This document shows positions 24,959 to 35,506 of a stretch of 35,506 bases of DNA, in pieces. The stretch spans positions 1 through 35,506 of the forward strand of contig JAMFRU010000104.1 in assembly GCA_026224875.1 (NCBI GenBank). The letters run 5' to 3'. Below the pieces are notes generated by a model. It ran no database searches and was not told where the DNA came from. It saw only the letters and a list, made by a program, of their open reading frames with translations. Both the position numbers and the translations under genes were made by a program. Position 1 is the stretch's first letter; the number at the start of each line of letters is the position of its first letter. Origin of the DNA: Acidocella sp. GTDB lineage: Bacteria > Pseudomonadota > Alphaproteobacteria > Acetobacterales > Acetobacteraceae.

Positions 24959-25891
24959 TTAGCATGCGGATTCGTTTAGACCAGTGGCAATCAGTGCCAG
25001 TTGCGCCCGCTGCTTCAACCGTCCACCAAACTCGCCCATACGCTGCGCAACACCAGGCTCACCGGGGGTTACCAGCAGCAAAAGCAACCCACCCCAGCGA
25101 ATGCGCACCAAATCCCCCAGCCCATCGCTGATCCTGTCGAGCAGGCTCGCCAGGAAATTCAGATGCAGCCGGCGCACGCAGCGGACCAGCCAGGATTTTA
25201 CCCGGCTCCAGAGCTTACGTCCCGTAATGACGCTGAAAACTGCGAAAGCGATCGAGGCCATGCCGGCGACGGCACCGATCATGACCGTGAGCCCATCCCG
25301 TTCGGCAAGACCGATGCCTATCAAAAAAGCCGAAGCCGCGTGCTGAATCCCGCCACCGATCACCGGCGCCATGCTGACGATGCCGAGCAGGAACAGCATC
25401 ACCCCAAGCGCTACGCTCATCGCCGGGTGGAACACCCAGCTCCAGCGCTCCCGCAGTTTGCCGCCTGCCGTGTCCATGGCCGAGACAATTCCTTGGACCA
25501 AAATAGATAAGGAGTTGCGCGGAATCTTCCGCCGCAGCAGCCGCCGCGGCAGGGTTATGCTACGCCGGCCCAGCGCCAGCCCCGCGCCAAGCGCGCTGAT
25601 CATGCGGCCGGAAACGCTGGCGGCATCAGGAATTTCAAAAAGCCCAGCCGCGGAAAACATCACCAAGGCTGACGGTGTAGCATCGGTTTGCAGGGCGTCG
25701 ATAAGCTTGTGAACCGAAAACTCCCTTGTGTTGGGATGGTCGGTTAACACCCCCCGCAGCCGGGCGATGAGCGTGGCGCGCGCCGACACCGGACTGCCCC
25801 AAGAAAACCTCAGAGAATCAATGTTTGATAGATTTTTACGGCTGATTGAATCAATTCTTTCAATTGCCTTAATCGGACTATACATTGTCAT
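24959..25891 (-). CDS. ExoD-like membrane protein with C-terminal extension
   Basis: A 310-residue protein. Residues about 45-215 fit the ExoD (exopolysaccharide synthesis) family: a cytoplasmic lead (LRGVLTDHPNTREFSVHKLIDAL), a helix with LVMFSAAGLFEIPDAASVSGRMISALGAGLALGRRSI, a basic stretch RRLLRRKIPRN and hydrophobic helices ending in the family-typical SAFLIGIGLAERDGLTVMIGA. After it about 90 residues with another hydrophobic stretch (RIRWGGLLLLLVTPGE) and a basic amphipathic region are not part of ExoD as I know it. The role of ExoD is poorly defined (alkali sensitivity and exopolysaccharide in rhizobia). First gene of a two-gene minus-strand unit, divergent from the permease gene. Confidence 0.75.
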   Translation of the reverse strand: MTMYSPIKAIERIDSISRKNLSNIDSLRFSWGSPVSARATLIARLRGVLTDHPNTREFSVHKLIDALQTDATPSALVMFSAAGLFEIPDAASVSGRMISALGAGLALGRRSITLPRRLLRRKIPRNSLSILVQGIVSAMDTAGGKLRERWSWVFHPAMSVALGVMLFLLGIVSMAPVIGGGIQHAASAFLIGIGLAERDGLTVMIGAVAGMASIAFAVFSVITGRKLWSRVKSWLVRCVRRLHLNFLASLLDRISDGLGDLVRIRWGGLLLLLVTPGEPGVAQRMGEFGGRLKQRAQLALIATGLNESAC

Positions 25892-26035: not shown

Positions 26036-27463
26036 ATGGTGCCTCCGGTTGGAGTTGTTTATGCGGAGACACCACCGGCGCCGGGCCTGCGGGCCGAGTG
26101 CCTCAGCTATCCTGAAGTCCTGGCACAATCGGTCTCGGTAATCGCGCCATCCACCGTACCTGCCGCCGTTCTCGGCCTGATATTCGCCTCTGCTGGCAAC
26201 GGCACCTGGCTCAGCTTTCTGTTTGGCATGCTAGGTCTGACTTTGGTCAGCCTGAACATTAACCAGTTCGCGCGCCATTCCTCTTCCTCCGGCTCGCTTT
26301 ACAGCTATATTTTCACGGGATTGGGACCGACATTCGGGCTGATCGGCGGCTGTGCCTTGCTCTTCGGCTATATGGTTACCGGCATGTCCACACTTTGCGG
26401 TTTTGCCCTTGCCATGAACAGCCTACTCGCCAGCGCCGGGCTGGATATTCCCCCTTTGGTGCTTTCGACGGCCGCGGTCGTTCTGGTGTTCATCTTCGGC
26501 GCTGGCGACATCCGGCTTTCAAGCAAAACCATGTTGTTCCTTGAAGGTGCAGCAATCGTTGCGATACTGGCGCTCGGGATCGTGATCCTGCGGCACAAGG
26601 GTTTCATGATCGATCGCGCGCAGCTGACCCTCTCCGGCACGAGCCCCGGCGGGGTGCTGGTGGGCGTGGTGCTCGTGGTCTTCGGTTTTTCGGGCTTCGA
26701 AAGCTCAACCTCGCTCGGTGATGAAGCCAAGGATCCGCTCCGCTCGATTCCACGCTCGATCACGCAGAGCGTGCTGCTGTCCGGCGGCGTTTTCATATTT
26801 ATGGCCTATGTGGTGGTTCTGGGTTTCCAGGGCCTGCATGTTAATCTTGCAACAACCGAATTGCCGCTGTCTGTCCTTTCCAGCCATTACAACCTGCCTT
26901 GGCTCGGAGAATTCATCAGCGTCGGCGTACTGCTGAGTTTCTTCTCCTGCACGCTCGGCTCGATCAATGCCACCGGCCGGATCATCTTTTCCATGGCGCG
27001 GCACGAGTTAGTTCCAAAGGCCCTTGGCAAGGTGCACGCGCGCACCAAATCCCCCTACTTCGCCATCGGCTCTGCCGCCTTGCTCACATTGCTGGTCACG
27101 CTCAGCCTGTCGTTGTTCGGCGTCTCTGATTACGATGCACAAGGCTATTTCGGCACGTTGTGCAGCTTCGGCTTCCTTGTCGCCTATATGCTAATCTCAC
27201 TTGCCGCCCCCATCCATCTATACAAGCGCGGCAAACTCACCAAACGCGCACTGCTCATCTCTGCACTTTCCGTGCTGTTCATGGTGGTCCCCATACTGGG
27301 AACGATTGGCATACCGGGCTCCGCTACATTTGCACCGCCGACCTACCCGTCCAACATACTCATCTGGATATTCTTCGGCTTCATGCTGCTCAGTGTCGGC
27401 TGGCTTGTGACGGTGCAAAAATCCCGTGCAAAAGACATCATCGATGTGTTCAAGGAGAATTGA
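26036..27463 (+). CDS. APC-superfamily amino acid permease
   Basis: A 475-residue permease with about twelve hydrophobic spans. The first helix pair (SYPEVLAQSVSVIAPSTVPAAVLGLIFASAG) and the helix-3 region QFARHSSSSGSLYSYIFTGLG match amino acid/polyamine/organocation transporters; the SSSSGSLYSY segment stands where APC members have the S-x-G-G-x-Y substrate loop. A helix-6 type VFGFSGFESSTSLGDEAKDPLRSIPRSI and the cytoplasmic RIIFSMARHELVPKALGKVHARTKSPY are textbook features. AGGAG lies 8 bases before ATG 26036. The substrate cannot be told. It is followed by a separately controlled gene with its own repeats and promoter. Confidence 0.9.
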   Translation: MVPPVGVVYAETPPAPGLRAECLSYPEVLAQSVSVIAPSTVPAAVLGLIFASAGNGTWLSFLFGMLGLTLVSLNINQFARHSSSSGSLYSYIFTGLGPTFGLIGGCALLFGYMVTGMSTLCGFALAMNSLLASAGLDIPPLVLSTAAVVLVFIFGAGDIRLSSKTMLFLEGAAIVAILALGIVILRHKGFMIDRAQLTLSGTSPGGVLVGVVLVVFGFSGFESSTSLGDEAKDPLRSIPRSITQSVLLSGGVFIFMAYVVVLGFQGLHVNLATTELPLSVLSSHYNLPWLGEFISVGVLLSFFSCTLGSINATGRIIFSMARHELVPKALGKVHARTKSPYFAIGSAALLTLLVTLSLSLFGVSDYDAQGYFGTLCSFGFLVAYMLISLAAPIHLYKRGKLTKRALLISALSVLFMVVPILGTIGIPGSATFAPPTYPSNILIWIFFGFMLLSVGWLVTVQKSRAKDIIDVFKEN

Positions 27464-28142: not shown

Positions 28143-30713
28143 TCAACCTAGCTGCGCGGCGAGAAGCGCTGTCAGCTCATCCTTCTCCCGTTGCAGGGCA
28201 GAGGCCTTGCGTAGAGGAATGAGCCCGTTGGCAACGGCTGCCATTCCGCCGATCTGGTTGAAAACCATCGAATGCATGACACCGAAATTGCCGAACAGTG
28301 CGCCGCCGATGCAGAGCGCATTAGCCCCCACAATCATCCGCCAACTGCGTTTGATATTCCGTTGTAAATCCTTGGAGATGTCATAGAGCTGCAGAAGTTT
28401 CTCCAGGCTTTCTTCCATGAACACGATCTCCGCCGTATCCGTCGCAATGCTCGACGCACCGCGCAACGAGATCGAGACATCCGCTTGCTTCAAAGCAATC
28501 GAGTCATTGATACCATCGCCAATAAAGCAGACCTTTCGGCCTTCCTTCTGCAATGTCCGCACATAGCGCGCCTTATCTTGAGGCAATACCTCAGCAAAAT
28601 AGCGGTCCATGCCAAGGCGATTCGCTAAATTCCGCGTTGGCCGTTCATGATCGCCGGAGATGATGGCAAGATGTTTGGCCCCGCGCGCGCGTAGGCCCGA
28701 AATCACGAGCTGAGCTTCATTGCGTTCCGCCGCGCGCAATTCCAGCGCGCCGCCAAGCTCGCCATCCACCCCGATCATGATCAGCGAGTGCCCTTCGTCA
28801 TGGACCTCCTCAATCTCCCGGTCGAGCGAGGCGGGAAGCTTGATACCTTCATGCGCCATGAAGCGCGCACTGCCGACCCGGACGATATGGCCGTCCACCC
28901 CCACGGTCACACCATACCCAACCGCATATTTGGTCTCGTCGGTCTGCGGCATCTCCAGGTCGAGCGTATGGAATTTATCGAGAATGGCTTTCGCGATCGG
29001 ATGGCTGAACCTGTTTTCCGCTGCCGCAGCCCAGCTTAGTATGGTATTCTCATCATGCTTGCCGAAGGTCAGAATTCTGCCCACCTCCGGCCGTTCGCGC
29101 GTCAGCGTTCCGGTCTTGTCGAACAGAAAAGTATCAATCTCGCTCATCGCCTCCAGCGCCCGGCCGGATTTCACCAGCACGCCCTGCTGCGCCGCAAGCG
29201 TGAGCGAAGACAGCATCGCGATGGGTGCCGCCATGCGAATACCGGTGCCGAGATCGCAATTCACAACCGCAACGGCGCTGGAAGCGCCACGCAAGGCCAA
29301 GCTGACGCCACCCAGGGCCAAAGTCGGTATAACCGCACGATCCGCCAGCTTCTGGCCGCTGGATTGTGCCTTCAACGTGTGCCCAGAGGTCTCGTTCAGA
29401 ATTTTCGTAAGCCGGGCGGCAGTGGTCTCAGCGCCGGCGCTGGTCACCGACACCCGGATCTTACCGGCAATCACCGTGGTCCCGGCGAAGACTTCATCGC
29501 CCGCGGTTTTCTCCACCGGTGCGGATTCCCCCGTCAGCGCATGCTGGTCAATCATCGCCATGCCATCAAATACTGTACCATCCACCGGCGCGGACTCACC
29601 GGTATGGACGATAATGATGTCGCCGGGCTTGACCTTCTCAAGCGGCGTTTCAACCGCCGTTCCATCGGCATCCAGCCACACAAAGCGCGCTTGCTTGCCA
29701 AACACATTCAACAGCATGCGTTTGGAGTTGCTTTCGGTTCGCTCCACTAGTTTGCGGGACGCGCTCAGCGTTAGCGCCAGTACCGAGCCGGCGAGGATCT
29801 GACCGGTCACCAGGCAGGCGGCAACGACGATGGCATCCAGTACGTCGACCCCGAGCCGCTTCTCCTTGACGAGCAGGTCGTAGGCACCCTTGAAGCTTGG
29901 GATCACCGAATACATGAACAACACAGCACTCAGCGGCGTCAGCCAGGGGAAGGCAAACCTGCTCAGGCCGGAAACAGCCACCGTCGCCAGTGCCACGGGC
30001 AGATCGTAATCGATCGGCGCCACCGCAAAATCCTCGGTCCTTTCCAGAGCGGAGTCCAAAAGGGCGATAATCTGATGCTTCTGGATCTGCCGCGTATTGT
30101 AATGCACAAGCACCGTGCCCGTGAATTCCTGAACCGAAAATCTATCGATCCCCAAGGCATTGACCAGCTCGCCTTCAATCGCCTGCCGCAAGGCCCGCCT
30201 GCGGATCAGAATGGGATTTTCAAACCGGATGCGCCCGGTGATTTCATGCTTGATTTTCCAGCCGGATAATTGATTGCCATAGCGCTGCAAATAAACCTGG
30301 CCGCCGGCGCCATGGCCGAAGGTCGATGGCAATCTGCGCTGCATGGAGATTTCCCCGGCACCGCTGATGATCTTCGAAATATTCTGGACTTCTTCCTGCG
30401 GGCCGTCATCGCCGAACCGGTAATGGATCTCCGCTTTGCCGCGCTGCCCATCGATGAAGACGCTGCGCACGGCATCAGCCGAAAATGCCCGCTCAAAAAA
30501 CAACCTTCCCGTCGGCCCTGTCGGATCGGAGAGAAAGGCCGCGCCAAAAATCTCGATCTTGCCAGGCTCGGCGGCATCGACGAAAGCGCCAGATTGCAAT
30601 CGCCGTTTGCCAACAGCCCTCGTCCGCACGGGAGCCAAAGGGGCGGCCAATTCCGGCCGCGCAATGCCGGAGCGGTTGCGCTGCGCCGCGAGGCGCGTCT
30701 TCAGGGATGACAT
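28143..30713 (-). CDS. Heavy-metal-type (P1B-like) P-type ATPase with intact catalytic motifs
   Basis: An 856-residue metal-pump-type P-ATPase. Two ferredoxin-like HMA-type domains without CxxC come first (about 55-120 and 155-225). Then come membrane helices, the actuator TGES (394-397), the phosphorylation site DKTGT (Asp532), the P1B-specific Ser-His-Pro (570-572) and the hinge GDGIND (732-737), all intact. The membrane motif that is CPC in copper/zinc pumps reads CDLGTGIRMAAP (486-497): LGT stands at the CPC site, and the pattern D-x5-R-x3-P resembles the DYSC-type motif I recall from CtpC/P1B-6-like pumps. The ATG at 30713 has AAGG 7 bases upstream, 9 bp after the stop of the 80-residue gene, so translation is coupled. 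The metal is unknown; iron, manganese or zinc are possible. Confidence 0.9.
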   Translation of the reverse strand: MSSLKTRLAAQRNRSGIARPELAAPLAPVRTRAVGKRRLQSGAFVDAAEPGKIEIFGAAFLSDPTGPTGRLFFERAFSADAVRSVFIDGQRGKAEIHYRFGDDGPQEEVQNISKIISGAGEISMQRRLPSTFGHGAGGQVYLQRYGNQLSGWKIKHEITGRIRFENPILIRRRALRQAIEGELVNALGIDRFSVQEFTGTVLVHYNTRQIQKHQIIALLDSALERTEDFAVAPIDYDLPVALATVAVSGLSRFAFPWLTPLSAVLFMYSVIPSFKGAYDLLVKEKRLGVDVLDAIVVAACLVTGQILAGSVLALTLSASRKLVERTESNSKRMLLNVFGKQARFVWLDADGTAVETPLEKVKPGDIIIVHTGESAPVDGTVFDGMAMIDQHALTGESAPVEKTAGDEVFAGTTVIAGKIRVSVTSAGAETTAARLTKILNETSGHTLKAQSSGQKLADRAVIPTLALGGVSLALRGASSAVAVVNCDLGTGIRMAAPIAMLSSLTLAAQQGVLVKSGRALEAMSEIDTFLFDKTGTLTRERPEVGRILTFGKHDENTILSWAAAAENRFSHPIAKAILDKFHTLDLEMPQTDETKYAVGYGVTVGVDGHIVRVGSARFMAHEGIKLPASLDREIEEVHDEGHSLIMIGVDGELGGALELRAAERNEAQLVISGLRARGAKHLAIISGDHERPTRNLANRLGMDRYFAEVLPQDKARYVRTLQKEGRKVCFIGDGINDSIALKQADVSISLRGASSIATDTAEIVFMEESLEKLLQLYDISKDLQRNIKRSWRMIVGANALCIGGALFGNFGVMHSMVFNQIGGMAAVANGLIPLRKASALQREKDELTALLAAQLG

Positions 30714-30722
30714 GGCGGAACC

Positions 30723-30965
30723 TTAACTCCTCGATCGGGGCGGTTTTGTACCGCTGACATACTGCCTTGCGGCCGCCGCATTAAGTTCCCGCAACCGCCG
30801 CGCCGCGGCAGCGTCCGCAACATCCTCAGCACCGCCGATCAGCAATCGCGCCACGGCCGCATAGACGGCGGAAAATCCGGCAACGGAGGATTGGCCTAGC
30901 CGCACCAACCGCTTTCCAGCTGGCAAACCCTGCTCAGCCGCGTGGGAAACCGTCTTGAGCGCCAT
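30723..30965 (-). CDS. Small Ala-rich protein, first gene of the P-type ATPase operon
   Basis: An 80-residue protein not recognised. It has a basic start (MALKTVSHAAEQG, KRLVRLGQ), a moderately hydrophobic Ala-rich helix (SSVAGFSAVYAAVARLLIGG, about residues 26-45), an Ala/Arg helix (DAAAARRLRELNAAAARQY) and a basic end. I choose ATG 30965, with GGGGG 6-7 bases upstream, over a TTG at 31004. It ends 9 bp before the ATPase gene. As a small amphipathic partner of the ATPase it could be an adaptor or membrane-coat protein; this is inference from position alone. Confidence 0.65.
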   Translation of the reverse strand: MALKTVSHAAEQGLPAGKRLVRLGQSSVAGFSAVYAAVARLLIGGAEDVADAAAARRLRELNAAAARQYVSGTKPPRSRS

Positions 30966-31002: not shown

Positions 31003-31030
31003 AATTTAATGACATCACCCGGATAGTCAA
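31003..31030 (-). promoter_or_regulatory. Candidate minus-strand promoter for the ATPase operon
   Basis: On the minus strand TTGACT (31025-31030), 16-bp spacer, TAAATT (31003-31008, four of six). It overlaps the plus-strand promoter at 31009-31037, so the two divergent units cannot easily be started at once. Confidence 0.45.
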
Positions 31031-31037
31031 CTATAAT
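31009..31037 (+). promoter_or_regulatory. Promoter for the pseudo-ATPase gene
   Basis: ATGACA (31009-31014, five of six), 17-bp spacer, perfect TATAAT (31032-31037). It is 33 bp upstream of ATG 31071. Overlaps the opposite promoter of the ATPase operon. Confidence 0.65.
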
Positions 31038-31070: not shown

Positions 31071-33581
31071 ATGCCGCCCGTGACGAAGAATTTACCCCGT
31101 ACATCGGGCGCAACGCCGCCATCTGTCCGCATCATCGGTGATCAGCTGATCCTGCAGAATGACGCTTTGTTCGGCGGCGAAACATCCGCCGCCACACGCC
31201 GGCTGCTGGAGCTGGCCTTCTCTTTGCCCGAGGTCAAATCCGCGACCATCAGAGGCGAGAGGGGGCTGGTGACGTTCATCGTGTCCAGCAACGCCATACC
31301 GGGCCAGATCTGGCAGCGCCTGGGCGCCCTGCTGCGGCAAAAGCAGGTGCCTGAGCCCTCCCGCGAAATCCGCGCGGACAGACTGCCGCTGCAACCCCCG
31401 GCCCCGGGCCTGCCCGTGCGCATCAGCCGCTTCGGCCAGACCTTGACCACCTTCCGCGTCCGCGCACTGGCCTCGGAACGCATCCGCATCGCCCATCCCC
31501 TGCTCAGGGACAGGGACATCAAATCCCGTGTGCTGGAGAGCCTCGGCTCCGTGCGCGGCGTGGTTTCGGTGCGCTCCATCCGGCTTTGGGGTAGCGTGAT
31601 CATCGTTTACGACCCGCAACTCATCTCCCCGGAGCAGTTGTTGCGGTTCCTAGACGATTCCTGGGCCGGTTTACTGGTAGGCCCCCCTTCCCCGCCCTTG
31701 CCGCGCAAACTGGCTGTTGCCGGCTCCCTACTCGCTTTGTCCTTCACAGCGCAGTTCTTCCGCCTCGCTTTGCTGCCCTGGGCCACCGCCGCGGTGGCCC
31801 TGTACAACCTACCCAATGTCATAGCCGCCATCCGTGACTTGCGCCGCCGCCGCATCGGCCTGCCGGCGATGTACACATTGGGATTCAGCTTCCTCCTCTA
31901 TTTCAGGCTGCCCTTCGCCTCCAGCCTGTTCTCAACCGTCACACAAACCTGGCCGGCGCTCAGCAATCATCTCGCCATCAGCAGTGAAAATCGGCTTTTC
32001 GCGCCGCAAAGGCGCCGCCAGATCTGGGCCCGGCTGAGTGAAGGGCAGGCCGGTGAGGTCGAGATCGATATCGCGGCACTGCGGCCCGGCATGATCATCA
32101 CCGCGCGCAAGGGTGACTACATCCCGGCGGATGGCGCGGTTGTCGAAGGCCTGGCCTCCGTACACGAGTCTTTTCTGACCGGCGGGCGCGGCGGTGCCGA
32201 TAAATTGCCTGGCGATCCGGTCTATGCCGGCGCCTTTGTCGGTGATGGCAATATCTCCATCCGCATAACCCATGCCGGCCACGCCACGGCAGGCGCCGCG
32301 CTGGCGCGTTTGCTACCGCGCCGCGCCATCAGCAATCTACCATCCACGCAGGATGTGGACCGGGCCGGCCACCGCAATGCAAAACCAGCTTTGCTTGCTG
32401 CCCTGATCATGCTGGCTGTGACAAGAACGCCAAGATATTCCCAGGTGATCATCCGGCCGGATTATCTTTCCGCCCCGCGTTTGAGTGCGCATCTGTCTGC
32501 TCTGGCCGCCGTCGCCGAAGCCCTTTCCGGCGGCGCGCTTATCCGCAACCCGGCGGCGCTGGACCGGCTGCTTGCCGCCGATATCATCGTCCTCGATGAC
32601 GGCGTGAACTTTGTTAAGCGCCGCGTGCAGGTTTCTGAAATATTAAGTCAGGATCGGACCGCTGGTAACGAGACTTTGCGCTTTGTTGCCGCCGCCCTGG
32701 CCGGCGGCGACGATCCGCGCACGGGCGCACTGAAGCGGGAGGCGAAACGGCGGCGGATCGTCATCCCACAGGGCAGCGACTACCGCCGGCAGGCCGGGAC
32801 GATTTTATTCCGTGATGAAACCGGTTCGGAAATTCGCGTCATGGCGCCGGCTTCGGCCCTGAAGCGCGGGCTGTATGCGCCTAATGCAGCGTTCGCGGCA
32901 CAGTTGAAGGCGGAAGCCGCACTGCCGCAAACCGACCCCGCAACACGCAGCTTCGTTGTCTCCCGTGCCCGCAACATACTCGGCCTCGTCCGCTTCGCGC
33001 GCAACGGCCCCCTTGAGACCACCGATGCGGTCGCAGCACTACGGCTCGAATTCCCCAACACAAGATTTGTCTACCTCTCTTCCGCGCCGCAGGTGGAAGC
33101 CGAGGCGCGTGCAGAGGAATTGGGGCTGGATGCAGTGTTCGGAGGGCTGACGGCGAACGCTAAAACCGAAGTGATGCGCTCGCTCAGCGCCCGCGCTGTG
33201 TGGATAGGGGATGGCACAGATCCGAGCACTGCGCCCACCCGGGCGGCCGCCGCCGTCAGCGTTTCAATCGCCGGCCTCGAAAAACTAGCTGATGACTTTG
33301 CGGATATCCTTCTACTCGGTGGGGACCTACGCGCCTTATCGCCGGCCCGGCTCGCCGCGAAGCGGCGGTTTGGCCAACTCAAGGCTGATTACCGGACCGT
33401 CTACCTGGCTAATCTCGCTGCCGTGGCCGGCGGGTTTGTGGCCGGGTTTGGAAGCCTTCAAGCTGGCTTCACCTCCAACCTCGGCACTGCCGCAGTCTTT
33501 CTCGCGCGCTGGCGTGCGCTCAACAATCTAGCTCATCACAACGAGAAAGCGGAACTGGCACAACGCCCCGGCAGGATCTGA
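31071..33581 (+). CDS. P-type ATPase-like pseudoenzyme, all catalytic motifs lost
   Basis: An 836-residue protein that can be followed alongside the neighbouring ATPase from end to end: two HMA-like domains (about 20-90 and 125-195), membrane helices, actuator, P-domain and final helices. Yet the key motifs are gone: TGES is TGGR (370-373); DKTGT is DDGVN with only the Asp (509) kept; the Ser-His-Pro is absent; GDGIND is GDGTDP (713-718). In the metal-site helix D-Y and R-L remain (DYLSAPRLSAH, 464-474) but the Pro is His. It cannot be a normal ion pump. The long undamaged frame, AGGA site and strong promoter argue for a real protein, perhaps a regulatory or structural partner of the active ATPase. 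ATG 31071 is preferred to TTG 31056. Confidence 0.85.
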   Translation: MPPVTKNLPRTSGATPPSVRIIGDQLILQNDALFGGETSAATRRLLELAFSLPEVKSATIRGERGLVTFIVSSNAIPGQIWQRLGALLRQKQVPEPSREIRADRLPLQPPAPGLPVRISRFGQTLTTFRVRALASERIRIAHPLLRDRDIKSRVLESLGSVRGVVSVRSIRLWGSVIIVYDPQLISPEQLLRFLDDSWAGLLVGPPSPPLPRKLAVAGSLLALSFTAQFFRLALLPWATAAVALYNLPNVIAAIRDLRRRRIGLPAMYTLGFSFLLYFRLPFASSLFSTVTQTWPALSNHLAISSENRLFAPQRRRQIWARLSEGQAGEVEIDIAALRPGMIITARKGDYIPADGAVVEGLASVHESFLTGGRGGADKLPGDPVYAGAFVGDGNISIRITHAGHATAGAALARLLPRRAISNLPSTQDVDRAGHRNAKPALLAALIMLAVTRTPRYSQVIIRPDYLSAPRLSAHLSALAAVAEALSGGALIRNPAALDRLLAADIIVLDDGVNFVKRRVQVSEILSQDRTAGNETLRFVAAALAGGDDPRTGALKREAKRRRIVIPQGSDYRRQAGTILFRDETGSEIRVMAPASALKRGLYAPNAAFAAQLKAEAALPQTDPATRSFVVSRARNILGLVRFARNGPLETTDAVAALRLEFPNTRFVYLSSAPQVEAEARAEELGLDAVFGGLTANAKTEVMRSLSARAVWIGDGTDPSTAPTRAAAAVSVSIAGLEKLADDFADILLLGGDLRALSPARLAAKRRFGQLKADYRTVYLANLAAVAGGFVAGFGSLQAGFTSNLGTAAVFLARWRALNNLAHHNEKAELAQRPGRI

Positions 33582-33606: not shown

Positions 33607-33957
33607 TTAACCCCTTAGCGCGATGATCGTCAGACGCAGAGGATGCGTGGCTACCAGGCACGTGTAGCGCCCATTCTGCAAATACTTAAATCTGACAACC
33701 AATTCTGGGTCGTTGCCCGTAAACAAAGCCGCTCTGTCGATGGCTGATAGCTCCCCTTGCGTCAGCCCTCCGATACGGAACCCAGTACCTGACCAGGTCA
33801 CCTCAAGGCCCTGGCCATCCTTCAACCGGTAGTGACCAATCAGGCGATCACGATCCTTCTCGGCCAAAGTGATTTGCTCCGGCGCAGAGAACCAGCCATT
33901 TGCAACGGTCACGAATTTTCGAAGACCTTCAGTCACACTTTGGAAAACCGCGTCCAT
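33607..33957 (-). CDS. Small beta-rich protein, DUF3471-like
   Basis: A 116-residue protein. After an N-terminal helix, ITLAEKDRDRLIGHYRLKDGQGLEVTWSGTGFRIGG, LSAIDRAALFTGNDPELVVRFKY and a closing YTCLVATHPLRLTIIALR follow the strand order of the small beta domain found at the C-terminus of many serine beta-lactamase-type hydrolases (DUF3471-like). No catalytic serine domain is attached here, so it is either a free-standing version or a remnant. AAGGAG lies 7 bases before the ATG; the leader holds three GGAGCAA copies. Convergent with the pseudo-ATPase gene (25-bp gap). Confidence 0.6.
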   Translation of the reverse strand: MDAVFQSVTEGLRKFVTVANGWFSAPEQITLAEKDRDRLIGHYRLKDGQGLEVTWSGTGFRIGGLTQGELSAIDRAALFTGNDPELVVRFKYLQNGRYTCLVATHPLRLTIIALRG

Positions 33958-34800: not shown

Positions 34801-35186
34801 CAGAACCTTCTTCTAAAAAGCTTATAAACTCTATTGATATTATATTTTTATTATATCTTGGCAAGAGTATAGATAATTCTGGCAAAGTTTTGGGCTCAGC
34901 AGAGGCCTCATAAAACTTGAATGAAAACAATCGCCTATGTTGGACTTACCTTAGGCCAGGATCGTCATTCATTTCATACTTGCGTGGAGTAGCCTGCATC
35001 GGCGATTTTGAGTGCCCAGCGGGCGGAAATTGACGCGGAATGAGCCAAATCGATTCAGGGGCGCACCCATCACCTGAGCCGCCATCTCGGGTCGCCCTTA
35101 ATATTCTCTATAATATCAGCGGATTGATCCTGACTGGCTACCATAAAGACAATTGGCTCGACACCATGACCGCTTGCGGAAACGCA
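34801..35186. other. AT-rich leader of the TSUP gene and gene-free DNA to the IS3 remnant
   Basis: 34801-34880 is the most AT-rich part of the window; on the minus strand it holds two TATAAT boxes in tandem and GAAGG ahead of the TSUP ATG, so it is the probable promoter region, though no -35 stands out. From about 34930 to 35186 no gene is seen; the sequence leads into the transposase remnant and is likely insertion debris. Confidence 0.5.
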
Positions 35187-35387
35187 TAGCCATTGCGTGG
35201 CGTAGTCTTGTGCCTCCTCTATGCTTTCGATGATATGCTGGTCGAGCCATTCATGGCGGACCGTTCGGTTGTAGCGCTCGACATAAGCGTTCTGCTGCGG
35301 CTTGCCCGGCTGGATGTGCCGGATGCTGATGCAGTGCTTCTCGGCCCAGGCCAGCAGCTTCCCACTGATATATTCCGGGCCGTAGCA
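35187..35387 (-). pseudogene. IS3-family transposase (OrfB) remnant
   Basis: Sixty-seven codons on the minus strand match the integrase core of an IS3-family OrfB: GPEYISGKLLAWAEKH, IRHIQPGKPQQNAYVERYNRTV (with the third catalytic Glu) and HEWLDQHIIESIEEAQDYATQWL. The usual DNGPE is CYGPE, so the second catalytic Asp is gone. After QWL the expected YNxxRPH-type end is missing and unrelated sequence follows; the residues before GPE are also foreign. It is a fragment joined at both sides to other DNA and marks the right edge of the accessory region. Confidence 0.8.
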
Positions 35388-35415
35388 CATTTCGAACGAG
35401 GCTACGGACTTCGGA

Positions 35416-35456
35416 ATGCGGGGCGCGGAGCCCTTGCGTAGCGCAGCGCCCCGCAT
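35416..35456. repeat. Inverted repeat next to the IS3 remnant
   Basis: ATGCGGGGCGC (35416-35426) and GCGCCCCGCAT (35446-35456) are perfect 11-bp inverted arms around a 19-base loop, lying just upstream (on the minus strand) of the IS3 fragment where transposase sequence should continue. It could be a terminator or small palindromic insert that broke the transposase. Confidence 0.55.
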
Positions 35457-35506
35457 AAGGCGGCCATGGTAGGGCAAAGAATCTCTAGAATGCAGGTGTT
35501 CGAAGC

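Follow-up and report, generated by a model that had tools for sequence, protein, structure and literature searches.

We describe here a gene that seems to encode a P-type ATPase deprived of its motor and that lies next to the gene of an active relative, in a stretch of 35,506 nucleotides of Acidocella sp. (contig JAMFRU010000104.1), the whole of which we call the window. With confidence slightly better than even, we read the product as a conserved pseudoenzyme, that is, a full-length homologue of the P1B ATPases that does not pump and serves as a dedicated partner of the adjacent active HMA_2-type ATPase. This reading was drawn from frames that have stayed open and motor motifs that have been lost in four genomes, from purifying selection, from the co-occurrence and adjacency of both genes, from a pattern of constraint that is inverted between the two proteins and from overlapping promoter-like sites between the genes (Table 1).

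Results

Pseudo-ATPase gene and its orthologues

The open reading frame (ORF) of the pseudo-ATPase runs on the forward strand from an ATG at position 31071 to a stop codon ending at 33581 and is free of stops and frameshifts, confirming the full-length P-type ATPase homologue of 836 codons that a preliminary description, made from the sequence alone, had placed there; residues are counted from this ATG. The protein matched the Pfam family E1-E2_ATPase with 76.9 bits and TIGR01525 with 129.9 bits over profile positions 57-555, the latter under the cut-off of 346.25, and the haloacid dehalogenase (HAD) hydrolase domain PF00702 was unmatched in the Pfam scan. The active relative with intact motifs that had been described next door was found as well: it contains TGES, DKTGT, SHP and GDGIND, and PF00702 was matched. 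The two proteins are 24% identical over 822 columns.

A protein search (E <= 1e-25) detected the pseudo-ATPase in four of the 38 genomes of the genus, namely the window's own genome (G000), G013 (80%), G028 (71%) and G004 (38%). A profile search for the active protein (E <= 1e-90) gave exactly the same four, and neither gene was found at these limits in the other 34, some of which are as little as 73% complete; when the count was restricted to genomes with completeness of 90% or more and contamination of 5% or less, 3/23 were positive in both searches. Both genes were adjacent in all four loci, divergently oriented in G000, G013 and G028 and in tandem in G004, so that orthologues with the same lost motifs beside the active form, which the preliminary description had proposed to look for, exist in three further genomes. 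The four frames, of 806-836 codons, are uninterrupted, and the same motifs are broken in them with differing letters, which makes a strong case against a reading error. A contig scan with six short peptides returned one orthologue (JAMFRO010000033.1) and one active P-type ATPase. Weaker matches were obtained in 47 of 61 genomes at E <= 0.001, and DKTG was present in the part of them that was inspected.

Motor motifs

The claim that every catalytic motif had been lost was a little too strong. TGES, DKTGT, SHP and GDGIND are indeed broken, but the phospho-acceptor Asp (D509, the Asp of DKTGT) and K698 of the P domain are kept in the four orthologues. The SHP of the active protein aligned with DDP, DDP, DDP and ASA. 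In all four, the losses comprise E and S in TGES, K, G and the last T in DKTGT, S and H in SHP, Y and the second G in GYG, G and D in SGD, and I, N and D in GDGIND. DKTGT has lost its first T in three orthologues (G004 has it), and GDGIND its first D in two; G004 alone has lost T and G in TGES and P in SHP. The residues kept in all four were D509, G576, S670, K698, G713 and G715. Judging from these motifs, phosphorylation cycling by the protein is very probably no longer possible.

The kept residues could instead point to an enzyme that is still active with an altered chemistry, in which D509, S670 and K698, which we take to be the nucleophile, Ser and Lys of the HAD fold, act on another phosphate donor; all three are kept in the four orthologues, and a 30-row alignment including 26 other P-type ATPases shows no variation at D509 and K698. 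We consider this quite improbable. Retention at the motif positions (6 of 25, one of these being I/V in active proteins and hence outside the columns compared) was not significantly above that of the active-invariant columns overall (74/484; Fisher p = 0.25), so the kept catalytic residues were not read as a sign of activity. Moreover, in two orthologues Asn takes the place of the first Asp in GDGxND, and the ATP-site His and the Glu of TGES are gone from all four.

Metal-binding features

Two heavy-metal-associated (HMA)-like domains without CxxC had been assigned to each protein. The N-terminal CxxC is missing from both proteins of the window, but Pfam HMA_2 covers one N-terminal domain in each (39.7 bits in the active protein, over the cut-off of 30, and 22.9 bits in the pseudo-ATPase, under it), and the first HMA-like domain of the pseudo-ATPase is drawn only from a predicted beta/alpha pattern at residues 18-89. 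The four pseudo-ATPases have 0, 0, 2 and 1 cysteines, that of the window having none, which disfavours a soft-metal sensor and makes it the least likely of the three roles, partner, sensor or scaffold, that had been put forward. The active protein has C300, C486, C729 and C801.

Neither protein has a CPC-like metal site in the fourth membrane segment (M4). The M4 of the active pump (residues 484-497) is VNCDLGTGIRMAAP, and related pumps elsewhere carry other odd M4 segments; in the literature consulted, no substrate of this HMA_2-type branch was found. P1B6 ATPases are marked by an SCA motif in M4 and an HN motif in TM6. The active pump reads NCDLGTG in M4, without SCA, and its C-terminal part contains HSMVFNQ. 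The M4 of the pseudo-ATPase was also considered as an outstanding conserved block, with 15 of 20 residues identical between G000 and G004; 292 of 2000 shuffles reached that value, and it is not significant alone.

Selection on the pseudo-ATPase gene

The ratio of nonsynonymous to synonymous substitution rates (dN/dS, Nei-Gojobori) of the pseudo-ATPase gene among G000, G013 and G028 was 0.147, 0.193 and 0.222, with dS of about 0.9-1.4, well under 1 and in agreement with the selection previously proposed. The same genome pairs gave 0.063, 0.050 and 0.068 for the active gene, the values of the pseudo-ATPase being two to four times higher. In 300 neutral simulations of one lineage with 0.48 changes per site, 13.6 stops arose on average and 6 at minimum, which bears out the argument that decay would have left stops in so long a frame. 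From the low dN/dS and the stops in every neutral simulation, the pseudo-ATPase gene is under purifying selection. The amino-acid change, faster than in the active gene, and the absence from 34 of the 38 genus genomes searched could be expected of a decaying relic or an assembly error; such an origin is hardly credible, as far as sequence can tell, in view of the four orthologues, with their open frames of 806-836 codons, of the dN/dS of 0.15-0.22 among three of them and of the at least six stops per neutral simulation.

Distribution of constraint

We compared G000 with G004 by domain, with borders set by hand before the identities were known and contrasts picked after viewing the identity table; the p values assume independent residues. 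In the pseudo-ATPase, identity was higher in the membrane part (107/242) than in the motor, made up of the actuator (A), phosphorylation (P) and nucleotide-binding (N) domains (126/375; p = 0.008), whereas the active protein differed in the opposite direction (membrane 160/245, motor 280/374; p = 0.011). The membrane part of the pseudo-ATPase also exceeded its whole cytosolic part, N-terminal domains included (107/242 vs 190/557; p = 0.008). The M3-M4 pair of the pseudo-ATPase was better conserved than its P1/N region (36/70 vs 33/131; p = 0.0003), with no such difference in the active protein (52/69 vs 97/133; p = 0.74). These contrasts fit a protein in which the motor was released and the membrane part was kept.

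A better conserved membrane part would also be compatible with a stand-alone non-pumping membrane protein, such as a passive pathway, a lipid- or ion-binding protein or a sensor, merely co-regulated with the active gene. The M4 segment of the pseudo-ATPase, unlike that of its partner, points the same way, and a P-type-like protein without a catalytic cycle has been argued for human TMEM94 in the available text of one study (PMC12134183). We regard it as rather unlikely, since in the genus the pseudo-ATPase was never found apart from the active gene (both in 4/38 genomes, neither in 34/38, at the limits and levels of completeness given above).

Structural model

The AlphaFold2 model of the pseudo-ATPase built on the 30-row alignment reached a predicted local distance difference test (pLDDT) value of 78.5 and a predicted template modelling (pTM) score of 0.59, with the P-type domains in order; with only a four-row alignment the pLDDT was 38.9. 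The best matches of the model in the PDB by Foldseek were P1B ATPases, led by 7r0g_A (E 2.1e-30), with template modelling (TM) scores of 0.45/0.55 and a root-mean-square deviation of 9.8, indicating that the relative placing of the domains was poorly matched. The modelled protein would thus have the P1B fold, with the A, P, N and membrane domains in P1B order, an agreement that is partly built in because the alignment was made from P-type ATPases. Oligomeric P-type ATPases were present by title among the PDB matches, namely an MgtA dimer and a hexameric plasma-membrane H+-ATPase.

Intergenic region and small proteins

Three promoter-like sites were found in the intergenic region of the window, against 0.3 in shuffles, and those facing the two ATPase genes overlap (Table 1). 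Conservation of the region between the 80-aa ORF and the pseudo-ATPase gene extends over three genomes, G028 having its TATAAT at a shifted position.

The 80-aa ORF is 56% identical in G013 and 44% in G028; a clear match in G004 was not found, and Pfam and NCBIfam scans were empty. The 147-aa protein, for which no significant Pfam or NCBIfam match was obtained, is 93, 79 and 44% identical in the other three pair loci; in G004 its homologue lies past the permease, some 3.5 kb beyond the pseudo-ATPase gene and away from the active gene. Another homologue (35%) is encoded just before a homologue of the active ATPase on plasmid pMRAD05 of Methylobacterium radiotolerans. The 147-aa protein thus accompanies the active ATPase branch on pMRAD05 as well as in four genus genomes, and is a candidate for a new accessory family. 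Four small proteins searched with Pfam at a limit of E 10 gave no match to DUF1490 or DUF6110, the HMMER filters dropping most matches above E 0.1. We infer that the base unit is the active pump with a small helical protein and that the pseudo-ATPase was an addition in this lineage.

The presence of these proteins raises the possibility that the pseudo-ATPase has a PacL-like role, as the scaffold or an assembly factor of an efflux platform, gathering the active pump and its neighbours without touching the cycle. The active gene is accompanied by genes for small proteins with a single hydrophobic segment, just as P1B and P1B6 ATPases are encoded with PacL (DUF1490) and DUF6110 proteins (available text of PMC9374683). 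Such a role seems unlikely, because selection on a whole pump fold exceeds what a scaffold needs and because the small proteins could already play that part, one of them going on pMRAD05 with an active pump that lacks an inactive partner there.

Table 1. Features of the window discussed in the text.
Feature	Position	Strand	Evidence or remarks
Pseudo-P1B-ATPase (inactive paralogue), 836 aa	31071..33581	+	ORF; E1-E2_ATPase and TIGR01525 scores; orthologues in three other genomes out of 38 in the genus
TGGR replacing TGES (A domain), residues 370-373	32178..32189	+	TGGR, TGGR, TGGN, SAAA in four orthologues
M4 segment IIRPDYLSAPRLSA of pseudo-ATPase	32448..32489	+	Near-identical in four orthologues, unlike M4 of active partner
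DDGVN replacing DKTGT, residues 509-513	32595..32609	+	DDGVN, DDGVN, DDGVD, DNTSD in four orthologues
GDGTDP replacing GDGIND, residues 713-718	33207..33224	+	GDGTDP, GNGADP, GDGSDA, GNGAAP in four orthologues
Active paralogue, HMA_2-type P1B ATPase, 856 aa, motor motifs intact	28143..30713	-	TIGR01525 421.6 bits, over cut-off 346.25
Promoter-like site of pseudo-ATPase gene, ATGACA-17-TATAAT, sigma-70-like	31009..31037	+	11/12; scored in window only
Overlapping promoter-like site towards small ORF and active gene, TTGACT-16-TAAATT	31003..31030	-	9/12; scored in window only
Small ORF, 80 aa, one hydrophobic stretch	30723..30965	-	Ends 9 nt before active ATPase start; homologues in G013 and G028
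Accessory protein, 147 aa, Ala/Lys-rich, one hydrophobic segment	27559..28002	+	Convergent with active gene; homologues in three other pair loci
Amino-acid permease (APC family)	26036..27463	+	Near pair in 4/4 loci

Other genes near the pair

An ExoD-like gene (24959-25891, reverse strand) is near the pair in three of the four loci, four ORFs having been scanned in G004, and a gene annotated as exopolysaccharide biosynthesis protein stands beside the pMRAD05 homologue. A 116-aa ORF without Pfam match (33607-33957, reverse strand) is convergent with the pseudo-ATPase gene, and among the fetched loci searched its homologue (66% identity) occurs in G013 only. At the window end there is an integrase core domain fragment (rve_3; 35070-35477, reverse strand), and a phage-type integrase lies near the pair in G004.

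Searches outside the genus

Matches were obtained in 3 of 385 genomes of a class sample, 6 of 398 of a phylum sample and 2 of 299 of an order sample, the window's own genome being included in each; in the families of G363 and G284, 0/5 and 1/17 genomes matched, the one being G284 itself. No further pseudo-ATPase outside the window's genome was detected in the three samples, all of whose matches (L036, L037 and L044-L051) keep DKTGT; L051 has TGEE for TGES. The samples overlap, and scoring was confined to the two or three best candidates of each genome, with an E-value limit of 1e-40 or 1e-45, so that more diverged proteins of this kind could be missed. Viral contigs scanned for both proteins gave no relatives, and the only hits at E <= 0.001 in a viral structure library were five viral P-type ATPases.

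Discussion

Among the roles proposed, a heteromeric or regulatory partner of the active pump fits best. The two proteins would bind each other in the membrane, where the active one would supply the ATP-driven movement and the pseudo-ATPase, by analogy with inactive paralogues in other enzyme pairs, would supply membrane helices and cytosolic domains that stabilise, gate or tune the pump. The small helical proteins may help to assemble this module, which most likely consists of both pumps with one or two of them. As a narrower proposal, which we make only tentatively, the complex could be an obligate heteromer in which a live pump subunit is joined by an inactive one, for a substrate other than a soft metal, the inactive half being retained only for what its membrane part and regulatory surfaces contribute.

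Several observations weigh against a conserved, dedicated partner. Pairs with G004 gave dN/dS of 0.47-0.56 for the pseudo-ATPase and 0.22-0.30 for the active gene, with dS near saturation, and the dN/dS of the other pairs is itself of limited precision, their dS being near 1. The dN of the pseudo-ATPase is 2.5-3.1 times that of the active protein, and the active protein showed no contrast between its membrane part and the whole cytosolic part (160/245 vs 359/568; p = 0.58). Plasmid pMRAD05 carries a 43% homologue of the active protein without the inactive partner on the plasmid, and no site in the plasmid records, a search that did not include the M. radiotolerans chromosome, covers 80% of the pseudo-ATPase. 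Finally, the tree places the pseudo-ATPases on their own deep, long branch within the HMA_2-type ATPases lacking a CPC-like M4, although the length of this branch makes their position unsure.

This tree had 35 rows, after a long row (L003_0) was dropped from a first tree of 36; rows from other loci entered only if DKTG was present, and each of the 28 loci supplied yielded one row. A recent duplication of the neighbouring gene was unsupported, because a tree holding the pseudo-ATPases with their partners was rejected by the approximately unbiased (AU) test (p = 0.022), a weak test here given the long branches, the unlike composition of several rows including three pseudo-ATPases, and its choice after the first tree.

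In fold and domain order the pseudo-ATPase resembles the P1B heavy-metal ATPases (TIGR01525; CopA, 7r0g; zinc pump, 4umv), above all those of the HMA_2-type branch, which is perhaps related to P1B6; it differs from them in lacking the motor motifs, the CPC-like M4 motif and CxxC and in its TIGR01525 score, far under the cut-off. TMEM94/ERMA of humans has a P-type-like architecture without TGES, with no catalytic cycle under the conditions tested in one study (PMC12134183), whereas ERMA is described elsewhere as an active Mg2+ ATPase (PMC13322241), both sources having been available in part; it is eukaryotic, has ten helices and is likened here by architecture and not by sequence comparison. 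The PacL/CtpC modules of mycobacteria and the DUF6110/P1B6 modules join a P1B ATPase to a small single-transmembrane protein, as in the loci studied here, although the small proteins of the latter match neither DUF family, and no inactive ATPase is described for those modules in the available text of PMC9374683. In Plasmodium and Toxoplasma, according to sources available in part, a P4-ATPase-like domain is appended to guanylyl cyclases and thus ties a P-type-like module to another activity; unlike the pseudo-ATPase, it forms part of the cyclase protein, is of the P4 type and is eukaryotic. PcrP of Pseudomonas aeruginosa is said, in a source of the same kind, to have a non-catalytic function.

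A catalytically inactive paralogue kept with an active one, as proposed here, is known in AdoMetDC and prozyme of Trypanosoma brucei (available text of PMC5201418), whose functional complex has been demonstrated; a complex between the two ATPases would be its counterpart. As had been supposed beforehand, no bacterial pair of an inactive and an active P-type ATPase was found in the open-access literature, as far as its text was available. Pseudoenzyme pairs are already known, and such a pair is new for bacterial P-type ATPases as far as these searches go.

P-type ATPases are usually seen as catalytic chains that suffice by themselves, in some cases aided by small subunits. If our reading is true, the retention of a full-length inactive copy alongside a live one would represent a new means of constructing or regulating a P-type pump. 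It would also offer a natural case of separation of function, showing which surfaces of the fold matter once the motor does not.

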